Assembly: GCA_001799195.1 (NCBI GenBank)
Contig: MGSU01000023.1
Coordinates: 1 to 20,116 of the forward strand
Length of the DNA: 20,116 nt
Source: Deltaproteobacteria bacterium RIFOXYA12_FULL_61_11
Lineage (GTDB): Bacteria; Bdellovibrionota_F; JAHFAK01; YA12-FULL-61-11
Reading direction: 5' to 3'
Shown here: positions 2,616 through 10,734 of the stretch, piece after piece
How positions within the stretch are numbered: the stretch's first letter is position 1
How the letters are laid out: every line of letters starts with the position of its first letter
Notes under the pieces: generated by a model
Seen by the model: the letters and a program-made list of their open reading frames with translations, nothing else
Database searches by the model: none
What the model was told of the DNA's origin: nothing
Made by a program: the position numbers and the translations under genes

Positions 2616-4385
2616 ATGAATCACGAACCTCTCATTCTCGGCATCTGCAACACCTCGGACAGCGGAGCAGCGCTCTTACGTGGAAACGACATCCTCGGAG
2701 CTGTCGGCGAAGAACGCTTGAATCGGGTCAAGCTCACCCGAGAGTTCCCTGTACGAGCAATTACCTGGTTGCTCAAAGAGGCGGGGTGCACTGCCGTTGA
2801 CCTCGACCACATCGCCTGTGGAGCTTGGGCCGGCCTCGACCCAACGCTCGGCCCTCCACTACTCGTGGAGTCCCTCCTTGCCCACCTCTCATCTTCGAAG
2901 GTCACACAAAAATCCAAAGTCTTCCTTGAACGCACCGCGGCATCCTGCCGTACCGATGCCATCCAACGACAGGCCTTCCTGACAGGGTTACAACAGTATG
3001 GATTGCCCCTCGAGCGCGTGGGCTTCTATGACCATCACCTCGCTCACGCTCTGACCGCTTATTGTGGTTCCCCCTTCCGTGAATGTTGGATCCTGACCTC
3101 AGATCTCCGCGGTGACCACCGCTCAACCACGCTCTGGGCAGCGGGGCCGGACCAAGGTTTGCGTTTACTGCACCAAGTCACCGAATGGGACAGCGTCGGT
3201 GCTTTCTATGCAATCATCACCGCCCTGCTCGGCTTCACCCCCGACCGGCACGAGGGGAAAGTCATGGGTCTTGCCGCGCATGGCAATCCTGCCCGCTGTC
3301 GTTCCGTAATGAAGGAAATGATCGAGTTACGCGAAGGAACCTTTCACGCTCAGCTCGGACCGCTCTATAAACCCTTCGTCCAACCGGATGTACCGAAGTT
3401 GCGATCAAGACTGGCTCACTCTTCTTGCGAAGACATCGCCGCAAGTGCCCAAGAACATCTCGAACGTCTCCTACTAGGCTATCTCAGATATCATCACCGC
3501 CGGCATTCCCCTGGACGTCCCATTGCTCTTGCAGTTGCCGGTGGAGTTTTTGCCAACATCCGGCTGAATGCTCGCCTTGCCGCCTTGGACTTCGTGGAAG
3601 ATCTCTTCGTCTTCCCGAACATGGGAGATGGCGGCTGCGCGCTCGGCGGCGCTCTGGCTGCGCGCTACCATCGATCCCACCAGAACTTGGAGGCCCTGCC
3701 AAAAGGACTTCCTCATGTTTACCTCGGCCCGGCTTACGACGATGTCGACTTCGAGAAGGCTCTTCATGGTACAGGGCTGGAAGTAACCATGCTCGATTCA
3801 CCTTCTCGAACCGTCGCCACATGCCTGGCCGCCGGCTTGATAGTGGGCTGGTTCCAGGGAAGGACCGAGTATGGTCCCCGGGCCTTGGGCAACCGATCCA
3901 TCCTCGCTCCTGCAATATCGACTCTGTACCATGAAGAACTCAATCGGCGATTGCATCGTGACGATTTCATGCCTTTCGCTCCGGTCCTTATTGAAGAAGT
4001 CGCCTCCCGGTGTTTCAAAGACTATAAAGCCTCTAGTAGAACTCACGAGTTCATGACGACGCTCTACACTGCCACGAAGTGGTTCACTGAGAAGTGTCCC
4101 GCAGCGGTTCACGTGGATGGCACCGCACGACCCCAAGTGGTGCGCAGGGATGTGAATCCCCTCTATCACGAAATCCTCGACAACTATTTTCGGATGACAG
4201 GTATTCCAGCCGTGATTAATACCAGCTTCAATACCCATGAGGAACCGATCGTCTGTTCTCCCTCTAATGCCGTGCACTGCTTCCAGAGCGGTGCAGCCGA
4301 GCTGCTGGTACTCGGGAACCGGCTTTGCTATGATCAGGCTTTTGCCGGGACCGTAGCATCCCTGCTCGGAGACAGAAACCCGTGA
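2616..4385 (+). CDS. Carbamoyltransferase, NodU/CmcH (TobZ-like) family
   Basis: Enzymes of this family transfer a carbamoyl group from carbamoyl phosphate, via carbamoyl-AMP, to a hydroxyl on a sugar or small molecule. ATG 2616 gives 589 residues, a typical length. The N-terminal Kae1-like domain starts GICNTSDSGAALL (9-21) and EERLNRVKLTREFP (32-45). It holds the metal-site motif DHHLAHA (139-145), DRHEGKVMGLAAHG (210-223), VAGGVFANIRLNARL (307-321) and MGDGGCALGGAL (336-347). The C-terminal YrdC-like domain has GWFQGRTEYGPRALGNRSIL (411-430) and INTSFNTHEEPIVCSP (534-549). All key motifs look intact, so it is probably active. It begins 4 bases after mreD and ends in a GTGA overlap with the next gene. 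The acceptor is unknown; a cell-envelope glycan or lipid is only an inference from the mre context. Confidence 0.9.
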   Translation: MNHEPLILGICNTSDSGAALLRGNDILGAVGEERLNRVKLTREFPVRAITWLLKEAGCTAVDLDHIACGAWAGLDPTLGPPLLVESLLAHLSSSKVTQKSKVFLERTAASCRTDAIQRQAFLTGLQQYGLPLERVGFYDHHLAHALTAYCGSPFRECWILTSDLRGDHRSTTLWAAGPDQGLRLLHQVTEWDSVGAFYAIITALLGFTPDRHEGKVMGLAAHGNPARCRSVMKEMIELREGTFHAQLGPLYKPFVQPDVPKLRSRLAHSSCEDIAASAQEHLERLLLGYLRYHHRRHSPGRPIALAVAGGVFANIRLNARLAALDFVEDLFVFPNMGDGGCALGGALAARYHRSHQNLEALPKGLPHVYLGPAYDDVDFEKALHGTGLEVTMLDSPSRTVATCLAAGLIVGWFQGRTEYGPRALGNRSILAPAISTLYHEELNRRLHRDDFMPFAPVLIEEVASRCFKDYKASSRTHEFMTTLYTATKWFTEKCPAAVHVDGTARPQVVRRDVNPLYHEILDNYFRMTGIPAVINTSFNTHEEPIVCSPSNAVHCFQSGAAELLVLGNRLCYDQAFAGTVASLLGDRNP

Positions 4386-7300
4386 TCGATCAGACCCCAC
4401 CAACCCGCAACCCGCTGTTCTATGCGCCCGAGGACATCAAGTTGCTTGAGGTCCTCGATTCGATCCTCACCAGACCGAAGTCAACCCCTTCCCGGTCCTA
4501 TTCCCCCGACCTCCACCCCCGAGGTATCAAAGAACTGACCGAGCACAAGAGTACCCGTCTGGCCTACGCCATGATCGATCTGTTGGAAACCCTTGAACGC
4601 GGTTCAGCACCTGAGCGTCTGCAAGCTCTCAAGGTCGTCCATGACGAGGTCATGCATGACCGGAGCATGTCGATGCGTTACAACGCAGCTCGAGTCATGC
4701 TCCAAGTCATGAAAGAACTCGTACGCGTACGCGGTGAGGAAATCCACCGTTTGGATCTCCTGCGCGATTTCCAGGACGCCGCTTCTGGGAACCCTCGCCG
4801 GATACGCAGCCAATTACGCAAACACCATCTGGTCGAAATGCCCGAGGCCCATAATCAGTTGGCCTTCGACGACCATGTCCACGACGCCAATACCAAGGGT
4901 AGGAAATCTCCCTCCCACCTCATCCTGGATGCCTGGATCAAGGGCATTCGTCACCTCTCGGTAGTCTATTACGACTACATCGACTACGAAGCAGTCACCG
5001 AGATCCTGGAGGCAAGCCGCATCGTCGGTATCGATCTCCGCCTCGGCGTTGAATTCACCGCCAGATTGCATGACAAACCAATTCATCTCATCTGGATACC
5101 GCGTGGTCTCGAACGCAACCGCGACCTCAAAGAACTGCTCGATGACCCGAACACCCGCGAACTGATGATTCAGGGCAAAGAAGCCTCGGCCTTCGAACAC
5201 GCCTACCTGCTCGAGGTTTTTAGAGTATTTGTCGTCAAACACTTACCAGACATCACTACACGTTTCAACCTCAACCTTTCGCACCTAGACGAACAGGAAT
5301 TCCTGACCTTCTTGGGCATTGGACGGCTCTCTCCCGTCCATATTGCCGAATTCACGTTCTCAAAAATCCAACCTTTAATGAAACAGCGTTTCGAAGCCAT
5401 CCGGGCTGAATATCCTACCGCGAACCTCGAGGTCCAGCTTCAACTTACACAAGAAGTAAATCAACTCAATGAGTTGGTTCCCGAGTATCTCATCGATCAC
5501 TATCTCCGCGAAGAACTCAATTCCACCCGGCCGAACACCGACGAACTGCCACCGTTACGACGGCTCAGCCCCCGAGAGATTCTCTTGCGCCTCAACCATC
5601 TTCCCTGTCGCTCGAATATCACCCTCAACCCCTCCAATCTCACCCCCCAGGAGGTGTTAGAGGTACTGTACCAGGGCCGAGGTTTGGTCACCCACTTGGA
5701 GATCTTCAACCTCAAGGATTGGTCTCGGGGCAAGACCGAACATCGCGAGACCATCAACAGAATACGCAGGATCCTCAATCGCGGCAACGTGATCGAAGGA
5801 AAAAGACTCGTCAACTCCCTGCTGCACGAGGCCGAAGGTCGGCCATTGATCCTCGCCGAACAACTCAAGGCGTTACGCGATATTCTTTTCGATATCAGAA
5901 CCTTGATGTCCCTCTATCGCAACGATCCCCTCCGCAGCAGATTGGGCAGCGACTCTGTCGGCCGATCCCGGCACACCCCCGGGATGGGTCTGGTCGTCCT
6001 TTCAACCCTCGCTCCCTCCGTTCAACGCGCTCTCCGGCGCGACCAGAAACGCATCCTGCCGGTCCAAACCAGCGTATATCGGCAAATTACCTACCTCGAT
6101 AGACCAAATCGTCGCCTCACCGCTCAGACCCGAGCTACCCCTCCGCCACTCGTTCCATTGTGGTGGAGATTGCGAGGAGTAGTTACCGACCATTGGTCCT
6201 TCGTGCCTAACGCAACCTGTTTGGTCCAACAAGGAGGCAGCATTGCCACCTTGGCCGGGCAACCCGAAGAGAAGGGCAACGGTTTCACTCTGCATCCCCT
6301 ACCTCGAGGACGTCGGGGTAGCCCCTCAACATTACACCCCCGTCATCTCAATGGGCACGTGCGCAACATACTGAAAATTTTATTGGGCTTTATCCCAGCC
6401 TTTCTAGCCTTCTTCCTTACCAAGGACTGGTGGTTCTTGGCTTGGTTCGGCGCCCCATTGTGGTTCACCATCACCGGACTACGCAATGTCGTTCAATCGG
6501 TGGTCGGCGGGGGCGGCTTGATGCGACGATCCTTACTACGATGGAACGACTACGTCTCATGGAGCAGGGTTTCGGATTCCCTGCTCTACACCGGTTTCTC
6601 AGTGCCGTTGTTGGATTGGCTAGTAAAAGGTGTATTCTTATCCCAGTCCCTCGGTATCACCGTCTCCTCCGATCCCTGGCTTCTCTATTCAGCCATTGCC
6701 CTGGCCAATGGTTTATACATCTCGAGTCACAATATTTTCCGTGGATTGCAAAAAATCGCTGTCGTCGGGAATTTTTTCCGTACCATTCTCTCGATTCCCC
6801 TAGCTTATACCATCAACTTTACCTGCGCTAATATACTGCTTTCGCTAGGACTTTCTAGTGCTGTTACCGATGAATGGCTCCAACTCTGGGCAGCGGTCAT
6901 TTCCAAGTTCGCATCAGACTTGGTGGCGGCAATAATCGAAGGCTATGCTGACCGCCAAGACAATTTTTTACATCGGGCCGTCGATTACCGCGACAAATAC
7001 CAAGCAGTACTCAAGTTACAGAATAAACTCGAGACACTCTTTCCCGATAAGGATGTAGGGGAAATGCTGACCTCACCGGGTTCTTTTATGTCCACCCTGG
7101 CCGAACGGTATCCCGATCTTCTCAAGCCCATGGTCATCCACGCCCTGGACCTGATGTATTTCTACCTCTATCAACCCCGCGGACAACTTGCGCTACGTAC
7201 CCTACTCCTCGAACTCCTGCCCGAGGATCGGCGCATGCTCGTCGTCAACCAGCGCATCCTAGGCGAAAAACGCATAATTTCTCGACTATTCTTAGATGGT

Positions 7301-7414
7301 CTGTGCGGTGAGCGTTTCGAACGGGCCTTAGCTATCTACCTCTCCCATGCAGACCATTACCTCGAATTCCTGGCGCGACTCGAACTCGAAGTTGTTCGGG
7401 CTGCCCCAGGTTAA
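4382..7414 (+). CDS. Large membrane protein with degenerate PHP-like N-terminal domain
   Basis: I do not recognise this 1010-residue protein as a named family. Residues 1-160 are mostly helical. Residues 160-240 read like a PHP metal-dependent hydrolase: DDHVHDAN (163-170, the HxH motif), KSPSHLILDAWIKGIRHL (175-192), VVYYDYIDYEA (194-204) where TDHD is usual, GVEFTA (222-227) and IHLIWIP (234-240). Further on, LGSDSVGRSRHTPGMG (521-536) resembles the final GSDxH motif with H displaced. Residues 245-515 would be a large insertion. About six hydrophobic segments lie between 660 and 850, followed by a soluble helical tail of about 155 residues. The start is GTG 4382, with GGAGA at 4368-4372 nine bases upstream. 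It overlaps the carbamoyltransferase stop by 4 bases. The PHP link and catalytic competence are inferred from motif reading only. Confidence 0.85.
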   Translation: MIDQTPPTRNPLFYAPEDIKLLEVLDSILTRPKSTPSRSYSPDLHPRGIKELTEHKSTRLAYAMIDLLETLERGSAPERLQALKVVHDEVMHDRSMSMRYNAARVMLQVMKELVRVRGEEIHRLDLLRDFQDAASGNPRRIRSQLRKHHLVEMPEAHNQLAFDDHVHDANTKGRKSPSHLILDAWIKGIRHLSVVYYDYIDYEAVTEILEASRIVGIDLRLGVEFTARLHDKPIHLIWIPRGLERNRDLKELLDDPNTRELMIQGKEASAFEHAYLLEVFRVFVVKHLPDITTRFNLNLSHLDEQEFLTFLGIGRLSPVHIAEFTFSKIQPLMKQRFEAIRAEYPTANLEVQLQLTQEVNQLNELVPEYLIDHYLREELNSTRPNTDELPPLRRLSPREILLRLNHLPCRSNITLNPSNLTPQEVLEVLYQGRGLVTHLEIFNLKDWSRGKTEHRETINRIRRILNRGNVIEGKRLVNSLLHEAEGRPLILAEQLKALRDILFDIRTLMSLYRNDPLRSRLGSDSVGRSRHTPGMGLVVLSTLAPSVQRALRRDQKRILPVQTSVYRQITYLDRPNRRLTAQTRATPPPLVPLWWRLRGVVTDHWSFVPNATCLVQQGGSIATLAGQPEEKGNGFTLHPLPRGRRGSPSTLHPRHLNGHVRNILKILLGFIPAFLAFFLTKDWWFLAWFGAPLWFTITGLRNVVQSVVGGGGLMRRSLLRWNDYVSWSRVSDSLLYTGFSVPLLDWLVKGVFLSQSLGITVSSDPWLLYSAIALANGLYISSHNIFRGLQKIAVVGNFFRTILSIPLAYTINFTCANILLSLGLSSAVTDEWLQLWAAVISKFASDLVAAIIEGYADRQDNFLHRAVDYRDKYQAVLKLQNKLETLFPDKDVGEMLTSPGSFMSTLAERYPDLLKPMVIHALDLMYFYLYQPRGQLALRTLLLELLPEDRRMLVVNQRILGEKRIISRLFLDGLCGERFERALAIYLSHADHYLEFLARLELEVVRAAPG

Positions 7415-7432: not shown

Positions 7433-9262
7433 TCAACCATTTTGCAGTATGCGATCCTGCCATTGCAGGAGGTAGAGTTCGAGGGGTTCCTTCTTCCCCT
7501 TGGCCTCGATGGTCCGATAGAATTTGAATCGCAGGTTCCTCTCATGCTGGTGTTTATGGAATATTTCCTTCGAAACGATGATGCTGCCGAACTGTTCTTC
7601 TTTGTGAATACCAAAGCGTGCTGTGGTATTGACGACATCGCCAAAAACATCGATACCTTCATCGCTCTCCTCAATGATGCCTTGCCCAAAATGCAGGCAG
7701 ATGCGCAACTCGAAACTGTGGGTTGCAGCAACGCTTTTATTGTGCCGTTCGAGTTCTTTCATGATACGCAGCGCTGCGCCGATACCACTGAAGGTATCAT
7801 CGAAACAACCGATGGTGATATCACCGTCGGATTTTATCAACTTACCGTATTCCTTTAAAACCGGGAATACCAAAGTGTTATGTGTCTCAATGACCTTGCG
7901 ACCTTCTACTGCGCCAAGACGTTCGAAGAACTTCATCGAATCCTTGATCTCAACGAACATAATGGTGATCTCTTTGTAGTACTGTTTTTCGAGGATGGCT
8001 TCGATGCGTCGGTATTCTTCCTCAATGACTGCTCGAGCCACAAGGAACCCGAGGTTGGTATGCTGCTCCCATTCGATGAGAGAAAGTAAACGCTGCTCCT
8101 CTGCCTTGATATCGGTTAATTTTTGTTCCCTTTTCTGGAGTTCGTCGGTCAGAATAGAAGCCTCTCGAAACTGTTCGGCCAAAATCTTCCCATGGCGTTC
8201 CAGTTCCTGGTTGAGCCGGTTCCTCCGATCGGTATGGGCATGCTGGGCCAACACGAGCATACGCTCCTCTTTGCGTTTGAGTTCTCGGCCTCGCACAGCT
8301 AGTTCGGTTCTACGCACCTCAAGAATCTCGAGCTTGCGTTGGAGTCTGAGAACATCGCTGGCCAAGGTGAGCATGGTTCGACGCTCGTCCGTGGTTTCCA
8401 ATGGTTTGCTCTGTTGCTCAATCAATTCGCGTTGAGAGGTTTCAAGTCGTTGTTGCAACCTCGCTTTCTCCTCGAGATATCTCATTCCCTCCAGCCTGAG
8501 GTCATTAAGAATACCTTCGCGTTGCCCGTCCAATACCAAATGTTGCGCTTCCGCCGAGCGTAATCCTTCGAGTTCTCGTTGGAGCTGTGCAATGACCTTT
8601 TCTTCCTCTTTGATCTTGGTTGAGATCTCGCTGTTCCGTTCCACCACCCTTGCATGAGCAGCATTAAAATCCTGTATGGATTCCAACAATTGCTCTTTCT
8701 GCATCTTTTCACCATCGACTTGTCGCCGAGACTTGGATTCTCTCGCTTCGATCAATTCGAGCATACCCTCGAGTTGATCCTTCTTCTCGACGTACTCCAT
8801 AAAGGTAAGTTTACCGTTCAGACTTTCAATGACCGTTTTCAACGCTTTCCCACGCTCATCGAGTTCGGCCATGATTTTGTAGGTCACAGCTCGACGCATT
8901 GCGAGGATGAGGTCGTTGACCTTGACCGGTTTGAGTTGGAAGTGCTTGGCCCCAAAGGCGAATGCCTTATGCACAACCTCTTTGGTAGCAACTTCGGACA
9001 GCATGATCACAATAGCCGAGGGGTTGAGGCGAAGCATCTCTTTCAGCACGACCAATCCGGACATACCCTGGAGCTTCACGTCCATAATGGTCAGATCGGG
9101 TCGATGCTGCTGGAACAGCGTCAAGGCCGAGGTACCATTGTCGGCCTCGGCGATCACCACGAAGGCGTCTTTGTCGATGGCTCGACGCAGATTCACCCGT
9201 ACCGCGGTAACGGTATCGACGATCAAGACGGTCAACTTCTGGTCATTGTAGCCTTGTTGCAT
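7433..9262 (-). CDS. Response regulator with coiled coil and class III nucleotidyl cyclase domain
   Basis: The 609-residue product has three parts. A CheY-like receiver (about 9-125) has phospho-acceptor D61 in TIMDVKLQGMSG, S89 and K111. The acidic pair is reduced to D16-T17. A highly charged coiled coil runs from about 130 to 425. A class III cyclase domain (about 430-600) follows. In it, E438 (FVEIKDS) replaces the first metal Asp and D481 in SDGD is the second. K477 and D538 sit where adenine-specifying Lys and Asp lie in Rv1625c-type cyclases, and N545 and R549 (VVNTTAR) match the transition-state pair. So adenylyl cyclase (ATP to cAMP) is more likely than guanylyl. The protein is predicted cytosolic. 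An AGGGGAG precedes the ATG closely. It is convergent with the membrane-protein gene (18 bases between stops) and divergent from ino1. Confidence 0.9.
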   Translation of the reverse strand: MQQGYNDQKLTVLIVDTVTAVRVNLRRAIDKDAFVVIAEADNGTSALTLFQQHRPDLTIMDVKLQGMSGLVVLKEMLRLNPSAIVIMLSEVATKEVVHKAFAFGAKHFQLKPVKVNDLILAMRRAVTYKIMAELDERGKALKTVIESLNGKLTFMEYVEKKDQLEGMLELIEARESKSRRQVDGEKMQKEQLLESIQDFNAAHARVVERNSEISTKIKEEEKVIAQLQRELEGLRSAEAQHLVLDGQREGILNDLRLEGMRYLEEKARLQQRLETSQRELIEQQSKPLETTDERRTMLTLASDVLRLQRKLEILEVRRTELAVRGRELKRKEERMLVLAQHAHTDRRNRLNQELERHGKILAEQFREASILTDELQKREQKLTDIKAEEQRLLSLIEWEQHTNLGFLVARAVIEEEYRRIEAILEKQYYKEITIMFVEIKDSMKFFERLGAVEGRKVIETHNTLVFPVLKEYGKLIKSDGDITIGCFDDTFSGIGAALRIMKELERHNKSVAATHSFELRICLHFGQGIIEESDEGIDVFGDVVNTTARFGIHKEEQFGSIIVSKEIFHKHQHERNLRFKFYRTIEAKGKKEPLELYLLQWQDRILQNG

Positions 9263-9417: not shown

Positions 9418-10734
9418 ATGCAGAAAAGAACTTTCGACATCCAGCCGGCAAACGGCAAACTCGGCATCTTGCTACCAGGTCTAGGCGCGGTATCCAGCAC
9501 CTTCATCGCAGGCTGTGTCGCCGTACGGCGCGGTCTCGGCGAACCCTTCGGTTCGCTTACCCAGATGGGGACCATCCGCCTGGGCAAACGCACTGAGAAA
9601 AAACATCCTAAAATCAAAGACTTCATACCTTTATCCAGTCTCGAGGAGCTCGAATTCCTGGCGTGGGACCCCTACCCCGAGAACTGCTACCAAGTCGCAC
9701 GCAACAATGCCATTCTCCCCCACGAGCTGCTCGACCAGATGAAAGAAGAACTCTCGGCTATCACACCCCTCCCCGCAGTGTTCGATAAAACGTACGTGCG
9801 TAACCTCGACGGTCCCAACGTCAAGAAGGGTGCGACTAAATTCGAACTCGCCTCCCAACTCATCGAGGATATCCGACGTTTCAAAGAAGAACGCGGTCTA
9901 TCGCGTATGGTCATGATTTGGACGGCAAGCACTGAAACCTATCTCGAGCGTTCCCTGGCTCACAGTTCGATCGAGAACTTCGAAAAGGCGATGGTCGCGA
10001 ATGACCCGAGCATTGCGCCCTCCATGCTCTATGCCTATGCAGCGATTAAATCAGGCATTCCCTTCGGCAATGGCGCTCCGAACCTCTGCGTCGACACTCC
10101 CGCACTCCAACAGCTCGCTACCCTGCACCGAGTTCCCATTGCCGGTAAGGATCTCAAGACCGGTCAGACCCTTATGAAGACCATCGTGGCCCCAGGACTG
10201 AAATCCCGCCTCCTGGGTATCCGCGGTTGGTTTTCCTCGAACATCCTCGGTAACAGGGATGGACAAGTCCTCGACGATCCCGACAGCTTCAAGACGAAGG
10301 AAGAGAGCAAGCTCTCGGTGCTCGAACATATCCTCGAACCTGAGATCTACCCCTCGCTCTACAAGGACCTCTACCACAAGGTGCGTATCAACTATTACCC
10401 CCCCAAGGGCGACAATAAAGAGAGCTGGGACCATATCGATATTTTCGGTTGGCTTGGTGGCAACATGCAGATCAAGATCGACTTTCTCTGTAAAGACAGT
10501 ATTCTTGCCGCCCCGATCGTGCTCGACCTAGCTCTCTTCCTGGATTTCTCCGCCCGCTGCGGCATGAAAGGCATCCAGGAGTGGCTATCGTTCTATTTCA
10601 AATCACCGATGGTTGCAGAGGGTCTTTACCCGGAGCATGACCTGTTTATCCAGCTCAAAAAGCTCAAGAACACCCTACGTTTCATCAAGGGTGAAGAACT
10701 CATCACCCATCTTGGGCTCGAATACTACGATTGA
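9418..10734 (+). CDS. ino1: Myo-inositol-1-phosphate synthase (inositol-3-phosphate synthase)
   Basis: This NAD-dependent isomerase/lyase converts glucose 6-phosphate into 1L-myo-inositol 1-phosphate, the first step of inositol synthesis for inositol lipids, thiols or compatible solutes. The product is 438 residues. The Rossmann motif is ILLPGLGAVSSTF (about 17-29). Further family signatures are VMIWTASTE (165-173), IKSGIPFGNGAPN (210-222), the lysine-rich loop AGKDLKTGQT (242-251) and FGWLGGNMQIKIDFLCKDS (343-361). The C-terminal block is GMKGIQEWLSFYFKSPM (382-398). The C-terminal sequence resembles the bacterial type found in Bacteroidetes and some deltaproteobacteria more than the short actinobacterial form. 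It is a single-gene unit between two genes on the - strand. No inositol monophosphatase gene is present in the window. Confidence 0.95.
   Translation: MQKRTFDIQPANGKLGILLPGLGAVSSTFIAGCVAVRRGLGEPFGSLTQMGTIRLGKRTEKKHPKIKDFIPLSSLEELEFLAWDPYPENCYQVARNNAILPHELLDQMKEELSAITPLPAVFDKTYVRNLDGPNVKKGATKFELASQLIEDIRRFKEERGLSRMVMIWTASTETYLERSLAHSSIENFEKAMVANDPSIAPSMLYAYAAIKSGIPFGNGAPNLCVDTPALQQLATLHRVPIAGKDLKTGQTLMKTIVAPGLKSRLLGIRGWFSSNILGNRDGQVLDDPDSFKTKEESKLSVLEHILEPEIYPSLYKDLYHKVRINYYPPKGDNKESWDHIDIFGWLGGNMQIKIDFLCKDSILAAPIVLDLALFLDFSARCGMKGIQEWLSFYFKSPMVAEGLYPEHDLFIQLKKLKNTLRFIKGEELITHLGLEYYD

Follow-up and report, generated by a model that had tools for sequence, protein, structure and literature searches.

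The question raised by this locus is what is done by a protein of 1010 residues in which a degenerate barrel of the PHP type is joined to a membrane domain of six helices, and which of the two parts does the work. In the window (the whole stretch of 20,116 nucleotides that was analysed) the gene is an open reading frame with no internal stop over 1010 amino acids, present in single copy in its own genome. Its GTG start codon overlaps the stop codon of a gene that matches the carbamoyltransferase families PF02543 and PF16861, and both the reading frame and this GTGA overlap, as described in an earlier note on this DNA, are confirmed from the sequence. The layout of the gene and its product is as follows:

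4382..7414, + strand: whole gene, with GTG start, for the 1010-residue protein with PHP-like barrel and six-helix membrane part (reading frame; full-length relatives)
4382..4385, + strand: GTGA overlap of the start codon with the stop of the upstream carbamoyltransferase gene, 2616-4385 (sequence, Pfam)
4409..4831, + strand: N-terminal helical domain, residues 10-150 (AlphaFold2 secondary structure)
4853..5116, + strand: PHP barrel part 1, residues 158-245, with strands 161-167, 191-197, 218-229 and 232-240 (AlphaFold2, structure and profile comparison)
5117..5596, + strand: helical insertion, residues 246-405 (AlphaFold2, profile alignment)
5597..6217, + strand: PHP barrel part 2, residues 406-612 (AlphaFold2, structure comparison)
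6353..6949, + strand: six-helix membrane domain, residues 658-856 (model, conservation, topology)
6950..7402, + strand: C-terminal cytoplasmic helical part, residues 857-1007 (models, topology)

Within the PHP superfamily the protein represents a new variant, one that carries an uncharacterised membrane domain. When every member of the family was searched against Pfam and NCBIfam nothing rose above a cut-off (a SLATT_5 match, found in one member of 42, is taken as chance), profile searches of PDB sequences returned chance matches only, the plasmids searched held no match to the protein, and the literature search found no paper on it. Relatives occur on 22 contigs of one collection; one other phylum has them in 23 of 247 genomes and a further phylum in 20 of 39, and the membrane domain used as query detected 7 of 386 broadly drawn genomes, the window's own included. 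Most of these relatives are full-length proteins with 36-49% identity. The window's own phylum is represented in the collection by two genomes, the second of which is without the gene. The named hosts are, in the Desulfobacterota, Desulfamplus, Desulfotignum, Syntrophales and Mailhella, and elsewhere bins labelled Deltaproteobacteria or Myxococcota, and Wallbacteria. In one locus (L026:2466-5647) the gene is split into two frames of 282 and 777 amino acids, and another (L015:11677-11787) has a short second piece of the gene on the opposite strand.

The full-length AlphaFold2 model, built from 20 aligned sequences, has a pLDDT of 80.2 and a pTM of 0.76. Compared with PHP structures by VIA, residues 158-612 match 3o0f with Z 18.8 over 258 residues, RNase AM (9etk) with Z 18.3 and Cv1693 (2yb1) with Z 18.2, with PHP domains of DNA polymerases coming next (Z 11-13), and the top 27 rows of the list are all PHP proteins; Foldseek matches of the barrel to PHP proteins reach E values down to 6.7e-7. 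A profile of 42 relatives set against 20 ordinary RNase AM-type PHP proteins gives an hhalign probability of 95.6%, compared with 0.2% for the membrane domain, which served as control in the same comparison. The PHP-like fold proposed in the earlier note is therefore what a structure search does find (VIA Z 18-19; 95.6% vs 0.2%), and residues 158-612 are predicted by model and profile alike to be a PHP barrel of the RNase AM/YciV/Cv1693 type. The NCBIfam cut-offs for RNase AM- and Cv1693-type proteins are far from being reached by the protein itself (16.4 vs 400 bits and 16.1 vs 375 bits).

As in the RNase AM/Cv1693 subfamily, an insertion of the RPHxA type is present between beta-4 and beta-5, with the conserved His in 64 of 65 sequences; the profile alignment reaches into its start and pairs H320 with the His of the RPHxA-like motif. 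In the AlphaFold2 model this insertion spans about 170 residues and not the ~270 originally estimated, and it corresponds in part to an insertion already present in RNase AM-type proteins. Between equivalent residues it is ~66 residues longer than in an ordinary RNase AM-type protein (L004), and ~54 further extra residues lie ahead of GSD with respect to the same protein, the second half of this pairing resting on motifs. The individual positions on which the state of the barrel was judged, counted over a main clade of 51 and a sister clade of 14 sequences, are:

4868..4885, + strand: motif I, DDHVHD, residues 163-168, with alpha-metal ligands H165 and H167 (H165 in 51/51 and H167 in 44/51 of the main clade)
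4895..4897, + strand: K172 in place of the SDG Asp, the catalytic Asp20 of RNase AM (K in 47/51 of the main clade; E/D in 12/14 of the sister clade)
4967..4972, + strand: Y196-Y197 in place of the TDH Asp-His (alignment)
5051..5053, + strand: E224 of GxE, bridging alpha/beta ligand (48/51 main clade, 14/14 sister clade)
5339..5341, + strand: H320, aligned to the RPHxA-motif His of the RNase AM-type insertion (50/51 main clade, 14/14 sister clade)
5945..5956, + strand: GSDS, residues 522-525, with alpha-metal ligand D524 (D in 42/51 of the main clade, 13/14 of the sister clade)

The alpha set of PHP proteins in general includes the second His of HxH. RNase AM coordinates its alpha metal through His13, Glu72 and Asp255, its beta metal through Glu72, His83 and His198, and its gamma metal through Asp20, His45 and His257; the alpha and beta metals are proposed to hold the attacking water, and the mutants D20A, E72A and D255/H257A are inactive (PMC9410882). 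When these ligand positions are transferred to the 1010-residue family by alignment, the nine-residue, three-metal PHP set is found to be incomplete, the window protein having H165, H167, E224, H235 and D524 only, with K172, Y197, N416 and V526 standing in for the remaining ligands. The motifs first read from the window, namely HxH (H165, H167), GxE (G222, E224), IHL (H235) and GSDS (522-525), are all present, the replacement of TDHD by YYDY (196-199) and of the last DxH by DSV is borne out too, and the motifs are more than chance because full-length relatives conserve most of those residues. The IHL motif holds in the window but does not extend to close relatives, in which position 235 is mostly S, Q or K within the clade.

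In the main clade, 41 of 51 sequences have Y at the His45 position, the position of the beta-4 His varies, N mostly takes the place of the HP His, and H does not occur among the residues listed for the last His. Read from the alignment, this clade has mostly the putative alpha-metal ligands only (H165, H167, E224, D524), and the beta and gamma ligands are gone. The sister clade (14 sequences, mostly one family) has the beta-4 His in 12 of 14 and the HP His in 10 of 14, and is predicted on the same alignment to keep alpha and beta ligands. A paralogous subclade of seven sequences combines Y167 with S or N at 524, so that the alpha ligands are lost too, a change that is a single event on the tree and not seven, and four genomes (G262, G173, G137, G235) each hold an alpha-site copy plus a ligand-poor copy. 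In G262 there are three paralogues, L073, L074 and L075, with the alpha-ligand states HYES, HHED and HHQA. Ligand states cluster strongly on the tree, with 5 changes against a shuffled mean of 21, the tree being midpoint-rooted and some of its long branches unsure; the direction of change is taken to be loss because ordinary PHP proteins have the complete ligand set.

This pattern bears on whether the barrel could still be the catalyst, in which case the protein would be a membrane-bound phosphoesterase to which the membrane domain delivers a lipid-linked substrate; main-clade proteins would work with a single metal plus K172/R174/K175, and those of the sister clade with two metals. Such a one-metal hydrolase is the main rival to the reading preferred below, because the alpha set survives here, unlike the alpha-site His that Pol III has lost. 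What the barrel retains is precisely the set of alpha-metal ligands (HHED in 41 of 54 sequences, a count that also upholds the expected conservation of HxH and GSD in homologues), residues G173 and K175 are invariant in 54 sequences, and the sister clade keeps the ligands of both metals that are proposed for the attacking water in RNase AM (PMC9410882). Against this, Asp20 and His257, which were altered in the inactive RNase AM mutants D20A and D255/H257A (PMC9410882), are both replaced here, and the paralogous subclade lost its alpha ligands yet keeps the conserved membrane residues; a catalytic barrel appears somewhat unlikely.

The barrel could also be no more than a structural remnant. The precedent is E. 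coli DNA polymerase III, whose PHP domain has lost five of nine ligands and keeps its fold for stability (PMC3666897); on this reading the membrane domain of the 1010-residue protein would be a transporter or channel for a non-phosphorylated solute. Apart from this precedent, such a reading would accommodate the mixed neighbours of the gene and the decay of ligands in subclades whose membrane domain does not decay. If the barrel were purely structural, however, one would not expect 42 of 51 sequences to retain the complete set of four alpha-metal ligands, and we regard this explanation as unlikely.

The membrane part is the more constant half of the protein. The six transmembrane helices that the earlier note had described are predicted at 658-856 and confidently modelled: the domain modelled alone from 42 sequences (pLDDT 90.5, pTM 0.82) consists of six membrane helices and a C-terminal helical bundle. 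The charge of the loops gives a clear N-in/C-in topology, with K+R values of 2.1, 2.7, 3.3 and 5.5 inside vs 0.6, 0.6 and 0.03 outside. Across 65 sequences R701, N776, Y779, H783, N784, R787, N797, R800, K842, S845, D846 and E853 are invariant or nearly so, and the invariant positions hold even across clades at 23-31% identity. All ten near-invariant R/K/H/D/E/N residues of the helices sit in the half of their helix that faces the cytoplasm, from its end to its middle. Foldseek against the PDB returned nothing for this domain at E 0.001 or better, and the viral library queried with it gave no match. The best VIA match has Z 6.1 over 125 residues at 9% identity (4u9n/4u9l, which we take to be the MgtE transmembrane domain), a top row whose score is within the chance range for helical bundles, and no kinship with MgtE is claimed. 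SpecificRecomb (PF10136) was rejected as a relative of the domain, the hhalign probability being 0.2% vs L111, one sequence of that family. Three proteins of ~650 amino acids from one other phylum (L114, L115, L116), all lacking a PHP motif, show weak matches to the membrane domain (E 2e-5 to 1e-4); by sequence, they hint that the membrane domain can exist without the barrel.

Starting from the computed fold, ligand-loss pattern, topology and positions of the conserved residues, we infer that the membrane domain binds the substrate and that the PHP domain assists it. In the reading that is preferred here, to which we tentatively give a probability of about 40%, this inner-membrane protein acts at the inner leaflet on a phosphorylated substrate, with the membrane domain doing the work and the PHP domain as an accessory. 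The protein would sit in the inner membrane with its PHP domain in the cytoplasm, and the invariant membrane-domain residues would bind the phosphorylated substrate, most likely a phospholipid head group or other lipid phosphate, the main chemistry or transport being done by the membrane domain at the inner leaflet. The PHP domain would be a phosphate-binding accessory with at most one metal or none, and not a standard PHP hydrolase, and K172 would stand where the gamma-metal ligand was. A more specific version, namely a membrane enzyme or transporter of unsolved fold for a phosphorylated lipid, whose PHP domain was turned stepwise (3, 2, 1, 0 metals) into a phosphate-sensing regulatory domain, is possible but doubtful.

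The proposal is weakest where it connects the protein with lipid or phosphate metabolism, a step that draws on gene neighbourhoods. Neighbour clustering found no gene family common to most loci, and many neighbours are unrelated. GDPD adjoins the gene in two loci (L010, L011) and in the divergent L078 of genome G258; there its end lies a single base ahead of the gene, and no other GDPD was found in the genome. An obligate partnership with GDPD was rejected, since 14 of 27 genomes with the gene have none. In G481, ugpC is directly upstream of the gene and ugpB three genes further; in L022, PhoU_div and Pho4 are beside it; and a metallophosphoesterase with weak LpxG/YaeI similarity adjoins it in L062 and is nearby in L011 and L065. 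The few recurrent neighbours suggest glycerophospho-, inositol-phosphate or phosphate metabolism. Since many loci have unrelated neighbours and the phosphate-theme category was picked after the data were seen, this theme serves as a lead only.

Among these contexts, that of L007 could place the protein in an inositol-phosphate pathway (phosphatidylinositol phosphate or di-myo-inositol phosphate), as the phosphatase or in another late step. The gene there comes after Ino1 and a bifunctional inositol-phosphate cytidylyltransferase/CDP-alcohol transferase, a single 105-aa reading frame lying between. The window also has Ino1, two genes downstream of the 1010-residue gene, with a cyclase gene on the opposite strand intervening. 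Ino1 is nearby in those two loci only, and the search of the window's own genome for enzymes of the pathway was weak, with a model that also matches all 14 control genomes; a role of this kind is improbable. The two Ino1-type inositol-phosphate synthases (window 9418-10734 and L007:4500-5906), each near a relative of the 1010-residue gene, are 67% identical. The cyclase gene (7433-9262, - strand) encodes a response-regulator receiver domain, a long coiled-coil-like stretch and a class III adenylate/guanylate cyclase domain.

The earlier note had coupled the protein to MreBCD and the carbamoyltransferase, with which it would act on an envelope component made during elongation, and the GTGA overlap and the same-strand order of the genes in the window are consistent with this. 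The genes mreB and mreC lie upstream on the same strand, their names coming from sequence and position only, and mreD has a weak Pfam and NCBIfam match, under the curated cut-offs. Comparison with other genomes speaks against the coupling: tblastn of 71 other loci that hold a relative (924 kb) found no MreB, MreC, MreD or carbamoyltransferase near the gene, and the gene often stands alone between opposite-strand genes. The overlap is thus an arrangement of the window's own genome, because tblastn found none of the four genes in the 71 loci, and a partnership with them is very improbable. The carbamoyltransferase itself is of the NodU/HypF type and its gene directly follows mreD, an order absent from the loci with a relative.

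The interest of the family, which is without a name in Pfam or NCBIfam, lies in a fused membrane domain that is strictly conserved and for which no solved relative was found, and in the graded stages of the loss of a three-metal active site that living lineages preserve. Whether a PHP barrel can work with one metal or become a sensor can be tested directly in this family.

Among known systems, the closest in the barrel are RNase AM (YciV/RNM) and the 3',5'-nucleoside bisphosphate phosphatase Cv1693, which are alike in DxHxH, GxE, GSD and an insertion with a conserved His. Unlike them, the main clade has lost the beta and gamma ligands, the insertions are longer, and N-terminal helical and six-helix membrane domains are added. 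The variant PHP domain of E. coli Pol III has likewise retained the PHP fold after loss of about five of nine ligands, and the two cases differ in what was kept: Pol III lost an alpha-site His, whereas in the 1010-residue family the alpha set is the survivor, and where Pol III has a polymerase the 1010-residue protein has none and carries a membrane domain instead.
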